From positions 1,116,001 through 1,180,000 of the forward strand of contig NZ_CP044232.1 in NCBI RefSeq assembly GCF_008727775.1: a stretch of 64,000 nucleotides of DNA, in the 5' to 3' direction. Numbering within the stretch: position 1 is the first letter of the stretch; each line of letters starts with the position of its first letter. Below the pieces are notes generated by a model. That model saw only the letters and a list, made by a program, of their open reading frames with translations. It was not told the origin of the DNA and searched no databases. Source of the DNA: Microbacterium lushaniae (lineage in GTDB: Bacteria > Actinomycetota > Actinomycetes > Actinomycetales > Microbacteriaceae). Positions 17,212 through 23,738 of the stretch are shown one piece after another. A program made the translations under genes and the position numbers.

Positions 17212-17249
17212 ACCGGGGGTACGCTGGATGGCGGATGCCGACCGCATCC

Positions 17250-17290
17250 CCGGACGAGGGATCAGTACCCGGACAGCGACAAGACTGGCC
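17250..17290 (+). promoter_or_regulatory. Guanidine-III riboswitch (ykkC-III)
   Basis: The 41-nt element begins CCGGACGAGGG, continues GTACCCGGACAG and ends CGACAAGACTGGCC, matching from memory the ykkC-III consensus (CCGGACGAGG...GUACCCGG.CAG.GACAAGAC). The region 17260-17266 can pair with 17284-17290 as the H-type pseudoknot. The AAGGAG ribosome-binding site of the SMR gene starts at 17291, directly after the element. This suggests translational control in which guanidinium binding alters access to the site. The downstream gene is an SMR exporter, the expected partner. Confidence 0.9.
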
Positions 17291-17303
17291 AAGGAGCTCT
17301 GTC

Positions 17304-17621
17304 ATGTCGTGGATCGTTCTGGTCGTCTCCGGTGTCCTCGAAGCGGTCTGGGCGACCGCGCTGGGCAGGTCGGAGGGGTTCACCAAGCTCTGGCCGACGG
17401 TGATCTTCGGTGCCGCCCTCGTGGCGAGCATGGGCGGCCTCGCGTGGGCACTGCGGGAGATCCCCACCGGCACCGGCTACGCCGTGTGGGTCGGGATCGG
17501 GGCCACCCTGACCGTCGCGTACGGAATGTTCACGGGCACCGAGCCGGTGTCGCTCGTGAAGATCCTGCTCATCCTGGGCCTGGTCGGCTGCATCATCGGA
17601 CTGAAGCTCGTCAGCTCCTGA
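17304..17621 (+). CDS. gdx: SMR-family guanidinium exporter (Gdx/SugE-type)
   Basis: Four-helix small multidrug resistance protein, 105 aa. It has the essential Glu in helix 1 (LVVSGVLEAVWATALGRSEGF), with the surrounding VLEAVWA typical of Gdx/SugE, and GTGYAVWVGIGATLTVAYGM in helix 3. The upstream guanidine-III riboswitch strongly supports guanidinium as the exported substrate, by proton antiport in a dual-topology dimer. ATG 17304 has AAGGAG 7 nt upstream. Confidence 0.92.
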   Translation: MSWIVLVVSGVLEAVWATALGRSEGFTKLWPTVIFGAALVASMGGLAWALREIPTGTGYAVWVGIGATLTVAYGMFTGTEPVSLVKILLILGLVGCIIGLKLVSS

Positions 17622-17955: not shown

Positions 17956-18028
17956 GCCTCCGTAGCTCAGTGGATAGAGCGCCGGTTTCCGGTACCGTAG
18001 GTCGCAGGTTCGACTCCTGTCGGGGGCA
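17956..18028 (+). tRNA. tRNA-Arg(CCG)
   Basis: A 73-nt cloverleaf. Acceptor GCCTCCG pairs with CGGGGGC, with A as discriminator and no encoded CCA. D-arm is GCTC/GAGC. The anticodon loop TTCCGGT gives anticodon CCG, reading CGG (Arg). T-arm is GCAGG-TTCGACT-CCTGT. The 27-43 pair is a C-T mismatch, the only irregular pair. Confidence 0.93.
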
Positions 18029-18079
18029 CTGAAGATCGTACGCAGAACGGGGCTCGATCCGTGCGCGGAACGGCCCAGA

Positions 18080-19396: not shown

Positions 19397-19987
19397 GTGC
19401 CGAGAATGGTTGACGCCGATCAGCGCAGAGACGAGATCGCTTCGGCGGTGTGGCGGGTCATTCGCCGCGATGGTCTGGAACGGGCGTCCGTGCGGGAGGT
19501 GGCGCGCGAAGCCGGGCTGTCCACGGGGTCGCTGCGGCACTATTTCAGCAGCCAGCCGGAGTTGCTGGTCTTCACGATGAGGTCGGTGATGGAGCGGATC
19601 GAGCGGCGCGTCGCGGCGGTGCATCAGCCGGATGATGCGTTGCAGGCCGCGAAGCTGGTGCTGGCGGAGCTGCTGCCGTTGGACGACGAGCGGCAAGCAG
19701 AGAACGAGGTGTGGATGGCCTTCACTTCTCGGGCTCTGGTCGACCCTCAGCTCGGATCACTGCGCGACGAAGCCTATGACCGGATGCGTGAGGCCTGTGT
19801 GCTGTGGGTCGGCCGGTTGTGCGGTGACGCCGGCGAGGACGTGCGCGAGGTGGAAGCGGAACGCTTGTTCGCCGTGCTCGACGGCCTGGCCGTCCACGCA
19901 GCCATCCGGCCAGAACGTGCGACGCCCGCTCGGCTGCGGGCCGCGCTCGATCATCACCTGGACCAGGTCACCTCGTCGTGTCGCTGA
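19397..19987 (+). CDS. TetR/AcrR-family transcriptional regulator
   Basis: Protein of 196 aa. The N-terminal HTH is seen in RRDEIASAVWRVIRRDG and VREVAREAGLSTGSLRHYFSSQPELL; the C-terminal part resembles the BetI-type ligand domain. GTG 19397 gives the usual MPRMVDADQRR start; an ATG at 19406 has the better-spaced GGAAAGG and is an alternative. Likely represses the divergent membrane-protein gene and itself through the operator at 19355. Confidence 0.88.
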   Translation: MPRMVDADQRRDEIASAVWRVIRRDGLERASVREVAREAGLSTGSLRHYFSSQPELLVFTMRSVMERIERRVAAVHQPDDALQAAKLVLAELLPLDDERQAENEVWMAFTSRALVDPQLGSLRDEAYDRMREACVLWVGRLCGDAGEDVREVEAERLFAVLDGLAVHAAIRPERATPARLRAALDHHLDQVTSSCR

Positions 19988-20092
19988 CATCAGGAACCGG
20001 CCGCAAACCTTCATCGATCATCCCCGGTGCCACTGGCGTGCGAGGTCTCCCACGCTCGTGCCGACCGCCGTCAGAATCCCGCAGGTCCGTCG

Positions 20093-20587
20093 TCAGCCGT
20101 AACCGCCCAGCAGGGCGATGCACGGGCCGATCACGATGAGCCATGCCGCGCCCGTCATGATGAGCATCCCGGTGCCGTAGGGGCGGGTGCGCGGAGAGAA
20201 CATCAGGGCGATGGAGACGACGGCGATGGCGATGAACGGCCATAGGAAGCCGAAGATGGTGCTCGCGACGCCGAGCGTGCCGAGGGCCAGCACGATGCCC
20301 AGCACGTAGGCGCCGCAGCCGATGCCGAGGCCCGCCGCGATGCCTCTGCCGAACCTCCGGCGGTCACCGGGCGGCTGCTGCGGCGCGGGAGCAGGCTGCG
20401 GCCCCCCGGGCGGCGGCGCGAACTGCGGCGGCGGTGGTGTGCCGTACGGTGCGGGGGCGGGCGGCACCGCAGGCGCGGGCGGGCCGGCGACGGCGTCCGC
20501 GTCACTGGGATCGGCGGATTCCGGCTCCTCGGGCGTGCCCGGCGCGTCGCGCGGCGGCTCTTCGGGGTCGTCAGGCGTGCTGGGCAT
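20093..20587 (-). CDS. Proline-rich membrane protein, last gene of the radical SAM/Lgt-like operon
   Basis: Protein of 164 aa. The first about 85 residues are acidic then strongly Pro/Ala-rich and disordered, followed by about three hydrophobic segments (AAGLGIGCGAYVLGIVLALG onwards). The family is not recognised; such proline-rich plus DUF4190-like layouts are common in actinobacteria. ATG 20587 is preceded by AGGAAGGA and overlaps the end of the Lgt-like gene by 17 nt, indicating co-transcription. Confidence 0.72.
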   Translation of the reverse strand: MPSTPDDPEEPPRDAPGTPEEPESADPSDADAVAGPPAPAVPPAPAPYGTPPPPQFAPPPGGPQPAPAPQQPPGDRRRFGRGIAAGLGIGCGAYVLGIVLALGTLGVASTIFGFLWPFIAIAVVSIALMFSPRTRPYGTGMLIMTGAAWLIVIGPCIALLGGYG

Positions 20588-21395
20588 TCGACGTCGTCCT
20601 TCCTGATTCGGTTTCGGGGTCGGCGGTTTCGCGGAGCGTCCCGCGCCGCGCCATCCACACGATGCGTGCGAGCAGCAGCGGGATGGTGACGGCCAGGAAC
20701 AGCTGCGGGCGCGTGAGGCCGAGCCAGGCGACCTCGTTGCCGCGCACGAACTCCACACCGAAACGGAAGAGCGCGTACGCCGCGATGAACAGCGTGAGCG
20801 TCTCCCCGGCGGCGACCGGGCGGTGGCGCAGCCAGAACCACAGCAGGGCGAAGGCCGCCGCATGGAAGACGATCTCGTAGACGAAGCTCGGATGCAGCGG
20901 CACCCCGGCCTCGGCCCCCACCCGTGCGGCGGCCGCCGGGTCGAGCACGATGCCCCATCCGCCGCCGGTGGGGGTTCCGGGCTTCTCGGTGAGGAGGCAT
21001 CCGATGCGCCCGATCACCATCGCCAGCGCGACGGCGGGGGCGAAGAGGTCGCCGGTGCGATCGGGGAAGCGCACGATGCGCTTGGCCACGTGCACGCCCA
21101 GCCACGCGCCCACCAGCGCCGACAGCATCGAGGCGTTGCCGTACGCGAGCTGATCGATGAGGCTCAGGTTCCGCGAGGGATCCAGGTGCTGGGCCCACGT
21201 GCCCAGGCGGGAGAACACCGCCGCGCCCATCAGTGCCCCGAGGACGATATAGGCCACCCGCGGATCGCTCACCCCGCGGCGGCGTCTCTCCACCAGGAAC
21301 ACCACGCCGGCAGCTCCCAGGCCCAGGGCGACGAAGACGGCGTGCGTGTCCACCGGCGGCAGCCACGGGATGAGGTCGCGAAGAGTGGGGAACAC
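20571..21395 (-). CDS. Divergent prolipoprotein diacylglyceryl transferase (Lgt) homologue
   Basis: Membrane protein of 274 aa with about seven helices and Lgt family motifs: GRIGCLLTEKPGTPTGGGWG in place of GRxGNFxNxE, then HPSFVYEIVF, and RFGVEFVRGNE near the end. The Asn after GRxG is Cys, and the HGG motif on the preceding helix is absent (LSALVGAWLGVHVAKR). It therefore looks like a paralogue with altered chemistry, rather than the housekeeping Lgt. Start GTG 21395. It lies between a small membrane protein and a proline-rich protein, downstream of a Tes-like radical SAM gene. Confidence 0.82.
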   Translation of the reverse strand: MFPTLRDLIPWLPPVDTHAVFVALGLGAAGVVFLVERRRRGVSDPRVAYIVLGALMGAAVFSRLGTWAQHLDPSRNLSLIDQLAYGNASMLSALVGAWLGVHVAKRIVRFPDRTGDLFAPAVALAMVIGRIGCLLTEKPGTPTGGGWGIVLDPAAAARVGAEAGVPLHPSFVYEIVFHAAAFALLWFWLRHRPVAAGETLTLFIAAYALFRFGVEFVRGNEVAWLGLTRPQLFLAVTIPLLLARIVWMARRGTLRETADPETESGRTTSNAQHA

Positions 21396-21398
21396 CGG

Positions 21399-21716
21399 TC
21401 AGCTCAGCAATCTCACCCACATCATGACCCACAACGGGGTGGCCACCAGTGCCAGCACCTCGAGGACCCAGAGGTAGACCAGGACCAGACGCGTGTCGCC
21501 GAGCCGGCAGCGCGAGCGGAGGAGCCCCGCCCGCCGGGCGCGGGTGTACCCGGCGATGGCGACGCCGGCGAAGACGGCCACGACGATCGGGCCGAGGAGG
21601 GCGGCGATCGCGGCGACGGTCGTGAACACGCACAGCCGCAGCGGGTCGAACGGCGCAGCGGGGTCGGCCACCGACGGGTCGCGCTGATTGAGGTGGCCGA
21701 AGTCGGCGGTGCTCAT
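21399..21716 (-). CDS. Small membrane protein of the radical SAM/Lgt-like operon
   Basis: Protein of 105 aa with two or three hydrophobic segments (about 30-52 and 76-103). Family not recognised. ATG 21716 overlaps the radical SAM stop (ATGA) and the stop lies 3 nt before the Lgt-like GTG, so it is firmly inside the operon. Confidence 0.75.
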   Translation of the reverse strand: MSTADFGHLNQRDPSVADPAAPFDPLRLCVFTTVAAIAALLGPIVVAVFAGVAIAGYTRARRAGLLRSRCRLGDTRLVLVYLWVLEVLALVATPLWVMMWVRLLS

Positions 21717-23302
21717 GCGACGCTCACGGGGATCTGCCGGCGACCGCCGGTGGCCGTGGAGATGCGGGTGCGCGAGAGCGGTGCCCACGCCTGCACGGCG
21801 CAGAACGGCGCGCACTGGTGGGCGGCGGTGGTCTCGTTGACGGTCGCCACGTGCACGCAGCACTGGGTGAGGCGCTCTTCGATCATCGTGTTGATGTCCA
21901 TGAAGGGCTTGACCGTGATGCGCAGCACGCGCTCACCCATCATCTTCCGCAGCCGCGCGTGCTGACCGGGGAGCTTGGATGCGGCGAGGGTCGCGAGCGT
22001 GCCGATCCCGAGGTCGCAGTTCTGGCAGATGTCGCGCCAGATGGTGGCCATCGACGGGTGCGACAGCGACGACTGCTCGCTCAGCAGGTCCAGCAGCGAG
22101 CCCTTCACGACCTCCCGGATCGCCTTGTTCACGTTCGAGTCGGCGATGCGGTTGGCGAGCATGTCGGGCTGGAGGTCGAGGAAGCCCTTCAGCTGGTCGT
22201 GGCCGATCAGCCCGACGAGCGATTTCCAGTCGCCGGAGTCGTCCTTCAGCAGGTACCCCACCGAGCAGCAGTGCGGATGGCTGCACGGCAGCGCCGTGAG
22301 GTCGCGCCACGTGACCTCGCCGCCGGTCTGCGGACCGAGCCTGGCGAGCACCCCCGTGTGGGTGAGGCGCGCGGTGGGGTCGATGCCGGAGGAGCGTCCG
22401 GAGCCGAACACCGGCTGGATCGTGACGCCGCCGACGAAGGGCGTCGCCATCGCGCGGCGGATGACGTCACCCATCTCGCCGTCGTTGACCCCGAGCGTCG
22501 CGGTCATGGTGAGCGTCATGAACACACCCGCATCCGAGAGCCGCTGGATCGCGCGCTCCTTGAATCGGCGGATGTCGGCTCCCCGGTGGAACCGGGACGA
22601 TTCGGCGGATTCGCCGTCGTACTGCAGGTAGATCTCCACGCGCTCGCGGTGCTTCTTGAGCGTCTCCACGAATGCGTCGTCCTGGGCGATGCGCAGGCCG
22701 TTGGAGTTGATCAGGATGCGCACGACCGGCCGCGCCACGAGGTGCTCGAGCAGCTGCTCGAGCCACGGGTACAGCGTCGGTTCGCCGCCGGAGAGCATGA
22801 GCACGTCGATCCGGCCGTTCTCCCGCGCCAGTCGTGCGTCGACCGACGCGAGCACCTCCGCCAGCGGCGCGATGGAGGATGCGGCGGGGCTGGACTCCGC
22901 GAAGCACGTGGGGCAGCGCAGGTTGCAGTGGTCGGTGAGGTCTTCCAGCAGGATGCACGTGTGCTGGGTCTGCATCTGCGGCAGCCCGTCCTCGTACGCC
23001 GACGGCACCGGCTTGAAGTTTCCCGCGAGATCGGGGGTGTGCACCTTGGTCGGCGCCGTCCACTGCTCGAGGTACGTGAGGATCTCGGCGGACTCGTCGT
23101 AGAGCGTGCGGATGAGGCCGTGATCGGGGCATCCGCGCTCGAGCCAGATCGTCCCGTCGCGATCGGCGAGCCACCCCGACAGCCGCCGGACCTCGCTCAG
23201 CGGGCGGTCCGGATCCTCCTCGTGGCATTGCGGGCAGAATGCGTTGACGTATCGATGGACGCGGTAGTCGCGCAGGGGCATCCCCGCTCCGGCCTGGCTC
23301 AT
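21713..23302 (-). CDS. Radical SAM protein, Tes/MJ0619-like (candidate lipid-tail C-C coupling enzyme)
   Basis: Protein of 529 aa. An N-terminal rubredoxin-like knuckle (FCPQC at about 22-26, then RGCPDHG at about 57-62) precedes the radical SAM core with C126-x3-C130-x2-C133 in DHCNLRCPTCFAESSP and SGGEPTLYPW. The C-terminal half is Cys-rich (CSHPHCCSVGYL, DICQNCDLG, QCCVHV, CAPFC), consistent with auxiliary Fe-S clusters. This architecture matches the archaeal tetraether lipid synthase family (Tes, MJ0619) and its bacterial homologues, which join lipid chains at unactivated carbons. ATG 23302 starts the operon; ATG 23281 is an alternative. The substrate in this organism is inferred, not shown. 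Confidence 0.85.
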   Translation of the reverse strand: MSQAGAGMPLRDYRVHRYVNAFCPQCHEEDPDRPLSEVRRLSGWLADRDGTIWLERGCPDHGLIRTLYDESAEILTYLEQWTAPTKVHTPDLAGNFKPVPSAYEDGLPQMQTQHTCILLEDLTDHCNLRCPTCFAESSPAASSIAPLAEVLASVDARLARENGRIDVLMLSGGEPTLYPWLEQLLEHLVARPVVRILINSNGLRIAQDDAFVETLKKHRERVEIYLQYDGESAESSRFHRGADIRRFKERAIQRLSDAGVFMTLTMTATLGVNDGEMGDVIRRAMATPFVGGVTIQPVFGSGRSSGIDPTARLTHTGVLARLGPQTGGEVTWRDLTALPCSHPHCCSVGYLLKDDSGDWKSLVGLIGHDQLKGFLDLQPDMLANRIADSNVNKAIREVVKGSLLDLLSEQSSLSHPSMATIWRDICQNCDLGIGTLATLAASKLPGQHARLRKMMGERVLRITVKPFMDINTMIEERLTQCCVHVATVNETTAAHQCAPFCAVQAWAPLSRTRISTATGGRRQIPVSVA

Positions 23303-23384
23303 TGGCTCACCATAGCCGGGCCATAGCTGCGGATCAGACGCGGCTCGCGCGCATCATCCTGCCGCGCCCGCGCGGCCGGGCGGC

Positions 23385-23738
23385 TCAGCCGGTGACGGGC
23401 TCGCCGGGGTCGCGCGCGTCGCTGAGCCCGATCATCCGCCCGCCGGCGGTGGACCCGGGGCGGTGCGAGGTGCCGGGCGAGAACACGACGTAGGTTCCCG
23501 CCGGATACGTCGTGCCGTTGTCGTCGATCTCGCCGGACGCCACGTAATAGCGCTCCTCGAGCACGTGATGATCCGTGGTGGGCCACCGCGTCCCGGGAGC
23601 GAAGTCGTAGGCCCACGCGCGGATCAGGTCGGTCGCGGGCAGAAGGCGCCCGGTGATGCCGGGGGTCACCTCGAAGGTGGGCAGTTCGTCGATCCGCACG
23701 ACCTGGATGTCGGCGGGGGCGGGGGAGTGCTCGGTCAT
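23385..23738 (-). CDS. Cupin-domain protein
   Basis: Protein of 117 aa with a single cupin barrel. The region TTDHHVLEERYYVASGEI carries the metal-binding His/His/Glu of cupin motif 1, and YVVFSPGTSHRPGSTAGG is motif 2 with the second His. No enzymatic function can be assigned. I chose the ATG at 23738 because it matches the length of the fold; the upstream in-frame codon at 23789 adds an arginine-rich stretch. Confidence 0.8.
   Translation of the reverse strand: MTEHSPAPADIQVVRIDELPTFEVTPGITGRLLPATDLIRAWAYDFAPGTRWPTTDHHVLEERYYVASGEIDDNGTTYPAGTYVVFSPGTSHRPGSTAGGRMIGLSDARDPGEPVTG

Follow-up and report, generated by a model that had tools for sequence, protein, structure and literature searches.

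A conserved actinobacterial gene cassette that joins a Tes-fold radical SAM enzyme with an Lgt-like protein, probably for a membrane lipid or lipid-linked molecule

A four-gene cassette is described here from Microbacterium lushaniae, at positions 20093–23302 (minus strand) of a 64,000-nucleotide stretch of its genome (GCF_008727775.1, contig NZ_CP044232.1, positions 1,116,001 to 1,180,000), hereafter the window. Its two core genes encode a radical S-adenosylmethionine (SAM) enzyme with the fold of tetraether lipid synthase (Tes), called rSAM below, and a divergent relative of the diacylglyceryl transferase Lgt. The two families occur in exactly the same genomes in three samples, and two small proteins, TM105 and ProTM, accompany them. 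Judging from folds and conserved residues, the cassette probably makes a membrane lipid or a lipid-linked molecule; the chances are about even that it does so by a lipid or lipid-conjugate pathway in which phosphatidylglycerol (PG) would be the donor.

Along the minus strand the genes run in the order rSAM, TM105, Lgt-like, ProTM. The rSAM gene (21713–23302) encodes 529 amino acids (aa). It is followed by that of TM105 (21399–21716), a small protein of 105 aa bearing the motifs DPLRLC and R-S-x-C-x-L-x-DTR; by the gene of the 274-aa Lgt-like protein (20571–21395); and by that of ProTM (20093–20587), in which a proline-rich N-terminus is combined with hydrophobic segments and a TR-x2-G-x-G-xLIG..G-x-C motif. 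That TM105 and ProTM are membrane proteins is a judgement made by eye. TM105 starts at an ATG within a 4-nt ATGA overlap with the rSAM stop codon (the mechanical list of open reading frames, ORFs, has a longer GTG version), the GTG start of the Lgt-like gene lies 3 nt past the TM105 stop, and the Lgt-like and ProTM genes overlap by 17 nt. An earlier model-made reading of the DNA letters, hereafter the sequence-only reading, had proposed four tightly coupled minus-strand genes here, and these coordinates confirm it, as do the two overlaps and the single 3-nt gap. The cassette lies in a genome of 3.65 Mb in one contig, and its nearest named proteins come from Microbacterium, at 98% and 92% identity.

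Evidence that the core genes belong together comes from their distribution. A profile scan of genome contigs returned at least 554 relatives of rSAM, of which the best 80 are treated as named loci: 36 from Microbacteriaceae, 16 from Nocardioidaceae, 10 from Intrasporangiaceae and 18 from other or unplaced lineages. As the nearest relatives, they leave the far edge of the family outside the sample. Some members of the rSAM family bear Chloroflexota or Gemmatimonadota names, and some names of metagenome-assembled genomes (Gemmatimonadetes, Herpetosiphonaceae, a Mycobacterium) may reflect misbinning. In 77 of the 80 loci rSAM has an Lgt-like gene directly beside it, on its own strand, and in the three misses (L105, L108, L130) rSAM sits at a contig end. 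The two families were also found in the same 10 of 396 genomes of a phylum sample (rSAM rows with at least 57% identity; Lgt-like rows scoring over 150 bits, the next row 82), the same 24 of 394 of a class sample and the same 17 of 119 of a Microbacterium sample, and not one genome in these samples carries only one of the two. Five genomes are common to the phylum and class samples, and the window's own genome and one further genome (G489) occur in all three. The pairing, whose absence from related genomes the sequence-only reading had named as grounds for giving up its proposal, is thus kept. For the class sample a hypergeometric estimate that ignores kinship gives a log10 p of about −38, which overstates independence because the genomes share ancestry. 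In the 29 genomes of the phylum and class samples the pair lies on one contig and strand, 33–767 bp apart. The Lgt-like gene is the upstream one in 28 of them, and only the window's genome has it downstream of rSAM; in the 17 genus-sample genomes the two are side by side by coordinates. The identities of rSAM and Lgt-like members correlate across 84 loci (r = 0.90; 0 of 2000 permutations as high), as expected from joint inheritance. Outside the samples, several rSAM and Lgt-like clusters share longest contigs of equal size (e.g., 1495015, 128973 and 104357 bases), which suggests that the linkage extends further.

An all-against-all comparison of ORFs of at least 110 aa was made over 26 loci from other genera and lineages, a cut that misses TM105 and ProTM. 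Only rSAM and the Lgt-like protein (and their frame shadows) recur in all 26; the next gene family is found in seven, five of them Nocardioidaceae. A constant content combined with a shifting gene order is good evidence that the members of the cassette function together. In five Nocardioidaceae loci (L094, L097, L109, L112, L118) the cassette lies downstream of apparent rpsB, pyrH, frr and cdsA genes, named by eye, so that it may neighbour phospholipid synthesis genes in these genomes. Microbacterium has two versions of the cassette: the rSAM of one locus (L033, genome G489) is 67% identical to that of the window, and ProTM lies there between the Lgt-like and rSAM genes, while in the window it follows the Lgt-like gene. 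Horizontal transfer may account for the two versions.

Both small proteins are members of the cassette. TM105, for which no Pfam or NCBIfam family scored above cut-off, is present in 73 of the 80 named loci; of the seven that lack it, two are contig ends. Among 14 genomes picked to include those without TM105 nearby, it is missing genome-wide in seven, all of which keep the rSAM/Lgt-like pair; it is therefore accessory, and the idea that it serves as an obligatory substrate is weakened by the same count. In lineages other than that of the window, a gap of about 250–700 bp separates the Lgt-like and rSAM genes and holds a proline-rich protein like ProTM. A profile built from the transmembrane part of ProTM alone, leaving out the biased proline-rich half, found it in 73 of the 80 named loci (75 of 93 in a first round), always on the same strand; this count is in part circular, since the profile was iterated from the same loci, with seeds picked by motif and about nine set aside by eye because they were different proteins. 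Of the seven loci without a match, L062, L076, L092, L105 and L130 are truncated by contig ends, and L123 and L124 are plain misses. The profile had no match among 5301 farther ORFs, lying over 4.5 kb ahead of the rSAM start or over 5.5 kb past it, and ProTM is a single-copy gene in the window's own genome. Its position varies: it may follow the Lgt-like gene, lie between the Lgt-like and rSAM genes, precede the Lgt-like gene or follow TM105. The proline-rich membrane protein that the sequence-only reading had counted in the set is accordingly a conserved component. Two loci (L081, L122) carry two adjacent ProTM-like frames per cassette.

Turning to the enzymes, rSAM combines three regions. 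Residues 16–69 (23096–23257, minus strand) match the zinc ribbon family PF23545 (43.6 bits; cut-off 27) and form a rubredoxin-like knuckle, C23-X2-C26..C58-X2-H61, whose four ligands are identical in all 90 rows of the family alignment (89 distinct proteins, the window protein being present twice). Residues 123–283 (22454–22936, minus strand) are the radical SAM core, matched by PF04055 (65.1 bits; cut-off 29.5), and its C126-X3-C130-X2-C133 cysteines are likewise identical in 90 of 90 rows. A residue census places a C-terminal auxiliary-cluster region at residues 426–501 (21800–22027, minus strand), with C426, C429, C481, C482, C497 and C501, and the C-terminal cysteines are close to identical throughout the alignment. 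C116, C340, C345, C426 and C429 are kept in 89–90 of the 90 rows and C497 in 87; the extra conserved cysteines may serve the C-terminal cluster or another cluster. In a tree of 47 rows the family forms one side of a branch with 100/100 support and a long stem; branches in this tree are long and its Tes row covers the aligned part only, so that the deep order was left unused. In one genome (G311; loci L040 and L055) the rSAM frame holds an in-frame insertion of 93-base tandem repeats (about 1289–1503 of L040; 2.3 copies, 99% matches), which falls between segments matching window rSAM residues up to 355 and from 355 onward.

The predicted full-length fold of rSAM matches the Tes structures 7tom and 7tol, covering the rubredoxin, radical SAM core and C-terminal auxiliary domains, and 7tol is also its best sequence match in the PDB. 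Its identity to Tes is 23–24%, and the NCBIfam Tes model gives 157.1 bits (144.9 in the genome search) of a cut-off of 450. According to the accessible parts of the Tes study by Lloyd et al. (PMC9433317), the rubredoxin ligands of Tes are C9, C12, C33 and H36, its [Fe4S4]N cluster is held by C73, C77, C80 and a His, and a labile Met439 lies at [Fe4S4]C; Met439 and Tyr459 are reported there as wholly conserved across 1,000 archaeal homologues, although variants at either position remain active. Tes residues were mapped onto rSAM through the 7tol alignment with a 20-residue offset, using that numbering; since the offset recovers C33/H36 and C73/C77/C80, other Tes positions can be mapped as well. 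By this mapping Met439 is replaced by Lys (K465) in 89 of 90 rows (one gap), Tyr459 by Val (V485) in 87 (one Ala, two gaps), and Cys438 by Val or Ile in the family. The [Fe4S4]N motif, CxxxCxxC..His, occurs in none of the 89 distinct family proteins, each of which has a single Cys (C116) in residues 82–125, whereas it is found in 12 of 12 distant actinobacterial rows at 27–36% identity. The sequence-only reading had assigned rSAM, with its knuckle and Cys-rich C-terminus, to the architecture of Tes (MJ0619), and had called for a profile search against Tes; the architecture stands, and by its score and residues the protein is no Tes. Because Tes variants at Met439 and Tyr459 are active, the loss of these residues does not exclude Tes-like chemistry.

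The Lgt-like protein was rightly recognised by the sequence-only reading as an Lgt-fold partner, since it matches PF01790 with 89.2 bits (cut-off 24.9). Against the TIGR00544 equivalog it scores 46.7 bits, below the cut-off of 118.9, and a canonical Lgt is encoded at a separate site of the genome (E 5.1e-68 versus 4.4e-25 for the Lgt-like protein). Studies of E. coli Lgt, in their accessible parts, report that mutants of Y26, H103, R143, E151, Y235, R239, E243 and R246 fail, Y235T being partly active, and that N146A is inactive; R143 and R239 are proposed to activate the C3–O bond of PG, and H103 to act on the acceptor cysteine (PMC4728403, PMC8689077). Across 88 distinct members of the family, R143 and E151 (E. 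coli numbering) have their counterparts in every protein, and Y235, R239, E243 and R246 in 86 (two gaps). The signature GRIGCLLTE (20985–21011, minus strand) contains R143, E151 and a Cys in place of Asn146, all three in 88 of 88, and the R-x3-E-x2-R motif with the equivalents of R239, E243 and R246 lies at 20742–20765 (minus strand). The other changes are nearly as uniform: Asn149 is Thr in 86 of 88, His103 is Leu or Ile in 87 (one gap), and Tyr26 is His in 87 (one gap), a column that depends on the placing of a short gap. A His at the H103 position is not universal, since the canonical Lgt of the window's genome carries Tyr there. The sequence-only reading had invoked the transfer of a diacylglyceryl group from PG by Lgt. 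The donor side of this idea is plausible, the retained residues pointing to PG as donor, whereas transfer to a lipoprotein cysteine is not to be assumed, because Tyr26, His103 and Asn146 are replaced. We infer that the protein would keep its use of PG and have changed its acceptor or its chemistry.

Taken together, the four genes would form one membrane-associated biosynthetic cassette. The predicted fold and the cysteines of rSAM point to radical chemistry next to a pocket like the one in which Tes accommodates phospholipid tails. A cytosolic rSAM would generate a 5'-deoxyadenosyl radical and attack an unactivated carbon of a lipid, or of a hydrophobic substrate of lipid size, which would sit in a Tes-like pocket beside the C-terminal cluster; by analogy with Tes, the precedent for such chemistry is the formation of C–S and then C–C bonds. 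The Lgt-like protein would bind PG, activate its C3–O bond and donate the diacylglyceryl group to something other than the cysteine of a lipobox, in a site re-tooled by the exchange of Tyr26 for His, His103 for Leu and Asn146 for Cys. In this division of labour rSAM would alter the tails and the Lgt-like protein would move the diacylglyceryl unit to the new acceptor, while TM105 and ProTM would probably act as membrane partners that hold either the enzyme pair or the substrate in place there. Such a pathway would yield an unusual glycerolipid or a diacylglyceryl conjugate. The tail-coupled, membrane-spanning lipid of the sequence-only reading is one specific form that it may take, and the ether-like lipids of that reading may likewise be considered.

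A much more specific proposal is also conceivable, and we think it quite unlikely to hold in full: that the Tes-fold enzyme, a neofunctionalised diacylglyceryl transferase and the two small proteins act as one membrane complex to make a new PG-derived lipid of Actinomycetes. Here two kinds of bond would connect diacylglyceryl units, a new head-group linkage and radical C–C or C–S bonds in the acyl chains, yielding a bacterial membrane-spanning or macrocyclic lipid by a route unlike those of Tes, Mss or Ger. The Actinomycetes are mostly aerobic. Such a lipid, if it exists, would be expected to escape the usual profiling of fatty acid methyl esters.

Several observations weigh against a lipid pathway with PG as donor. 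The low identity to Tes, the missing [Fe4S4]N, M439 and Y459 and the long stem of the rSAM family mean that its substrate may have changed. As loss of H103 or of N146 abolishes the activity of E. coli Lgt in the accessible reports (PMC4728403, PMC8689077), the Lgt-like protein may have no transferase activity. The replacement of Y26 by His, moreover, hangs on where the short gap is placed.

Among the alternatives, the one to be taken most seriously, unlikely as we consider it, is that rSAM builds or modifies a soluble acceptor (pterin-, nucleoside- or peptide-like) which is exported, and which the Lgt-like protein then tethers to the membrane with diacylglycerol from PG. Some source names for rSAM read 7,8-dihydro-6-hydroxymethylpterin dimethyltransferase, and its N-terminal domain is called 'HMPTM' in Pfam, a name that stems from an earlier assignment of MJ0619. 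Its best NCBIfam match, TrsS, is counted on the same side, as is the Lgt-like protein's keeping of its donor side while other residues have changed. The whole-length Tes fold argues the other way, and so does the gene content: no other gene of at least 110 aa occurs in more than seven of the 26 loci, so that no dedicated exporter or extra synthesis enzyme is seen, short precursor genes having been sought only in the form of TM105 and ProTM.

We are very doubtful of a variant lipoprotein anchoring, in which the Lgt-like protein would lipidate a protein cysteine, possibly in TM105 or ProTM, and rSAM would alter the anchor or the protein. Membership of the Lgt-like protein in PF01790 fits this idea, as do the strongly conserved Cys of TM105 (DPLRLC, SxC) and of ProTM (GxC), both of which belong to the cassette. 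However, H103 is replaced in 87 of 87 and N146 in 88 of 88 rows with a residue at the position, TM105 is lacking from half of the tested pair-keeping genomes, neither small protein has a standard lipobox as judged by eye, and a canonical Lgt is already present in the genome.

There is also a slim chance that the Lgt-like protein, no longer catalytic, binds PG and offers the acyl chains to rSAM, which would then do all the chemistry. The replacement of Tyr26, His103 and Asn146, whose E. coli mutants are inactive in the accessible reports (PMC4728403, PMC8689077), speaks for it. On the other side, the residues proposed to activate the C3–O bond are kept in 86–88 of 88 proteins and the replacements are near-invariant, which together point to a catalysis that has been retained and changed. 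As for the genes being neighbours by chance, or forming a generic operon whose membrane functions are unrelated, we give this practically no credence: Lgt and radical SAM genes are both common, but the perfect co-occurrence in three samples, the adjacency across changed gene orders and the lack of another gene of at least 110 aa in more than seven of 26 loci rule it out.

A phage or defence origin of the cassette was considered and rejected on the outcome of searches of PHROGs, where rSAM has generic radical SAM matches only, and of PADLOC, where its core has only weak viperin matches (best 40.2 bits); TM105, the Lgt-like protein and ProTM had no match in either at E 0.01. Rfam at gathering thresholds gave no RNA element within the operon, and a consensus scan of 19900–23500 found no promoter and no terminator. 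Elsewhere in the window, a guanidine-III riboswitch (17229–17293, plus strand; 56.2 bits, gathering 36) lies directly 5' of, or overlaps, the start of an ORF that ends at 17621, which we take to resemble a guanidinium exporter of the small multidrug-resistance type. A tRNA-Arg gene with anticodon CCG is found at 17956–18029 (plus strand).

Neither the enzyme folds nor bacterial Tes homologues are new, but the clade, its partner and the cassette appear undescribed. The sequence-only reading knew of no described pathway with this gene set, and none was found in the literature searched either, nor any description of an Lgt-linked radical SAM clade or of the gene pair, although this does not prove its absence in print. 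Which enzymes make the membrane-spanning lipids of bacteria is known only in part, and the cassette offers a clean clade of Tes homologues with a fixed partner, an Lgt paralogue in which essential residues have been swapped for near-invariant others. Because it is patchily spread among close species (17 of 119 Microbacterium genomes), culturable carriers, for example Microbacterium oleivorans, can be compared directly with non-carriers. Should the cassette prove to make a new lipid, this would matter for membrane chemistry, for lipid biomarkers and for how Lgt evolved.

Compared with known systems, the Lgt-like protein shares with Lgt the PF01790 fold family and the R143, E151, Y235, R239, E243 and R246 positions; it differs in the Y26, H103, N146 and N149 positions, swapped in nearly all rows, in its TIGR00544 score below cut-off and in being a second copy beside a canonical Lgt. 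For rSAM the best NCBIfam match is the radical SAM (seleno)protein TrsS (NF045646, residues 39–503), yet at 193.4 of 490 bits it stays below the cut-off; none of Mss, Gms or GrsAB is named among 25 of the 41 NCBIfam matches, a search that used no model aimed at these families. Bacterial MJ0619-like radical SAM proteins have been noted in Acidobacteria, Planctomycetota, Chloroflexota and others, with their function undemonstrated as far as the accessible parts of these sources go (PMC8941075, PMC9433317, PMC11868695). Unlike the present family, the distant actinobacterial homologues keep [Fe4S4]N, and at five such Tes-like loci about 8 kb per side held no Lgt-like, TM105 or ProTM match. Eleven further rSAM-positive genomes of the phylum sample carry this distant type only, and the loci L042–L048 hold distant MJ0619-like proteins with the full motif at 30–36% identity, from other Actinobacteria including a same-class genome of 9.7 Mb. 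With Tes itself, also known as GDGT-MAS (MJ0619), rSAM shares the C-X2-C..C-X2-H pattern of the rubredoxin site, as given in the accessible text of PMC9433317. It differs from Tes, which is archaeal, in coming from Actinomycetes and related classes, and in being paired with an Lgt-like protein at every locus where the flank is present.

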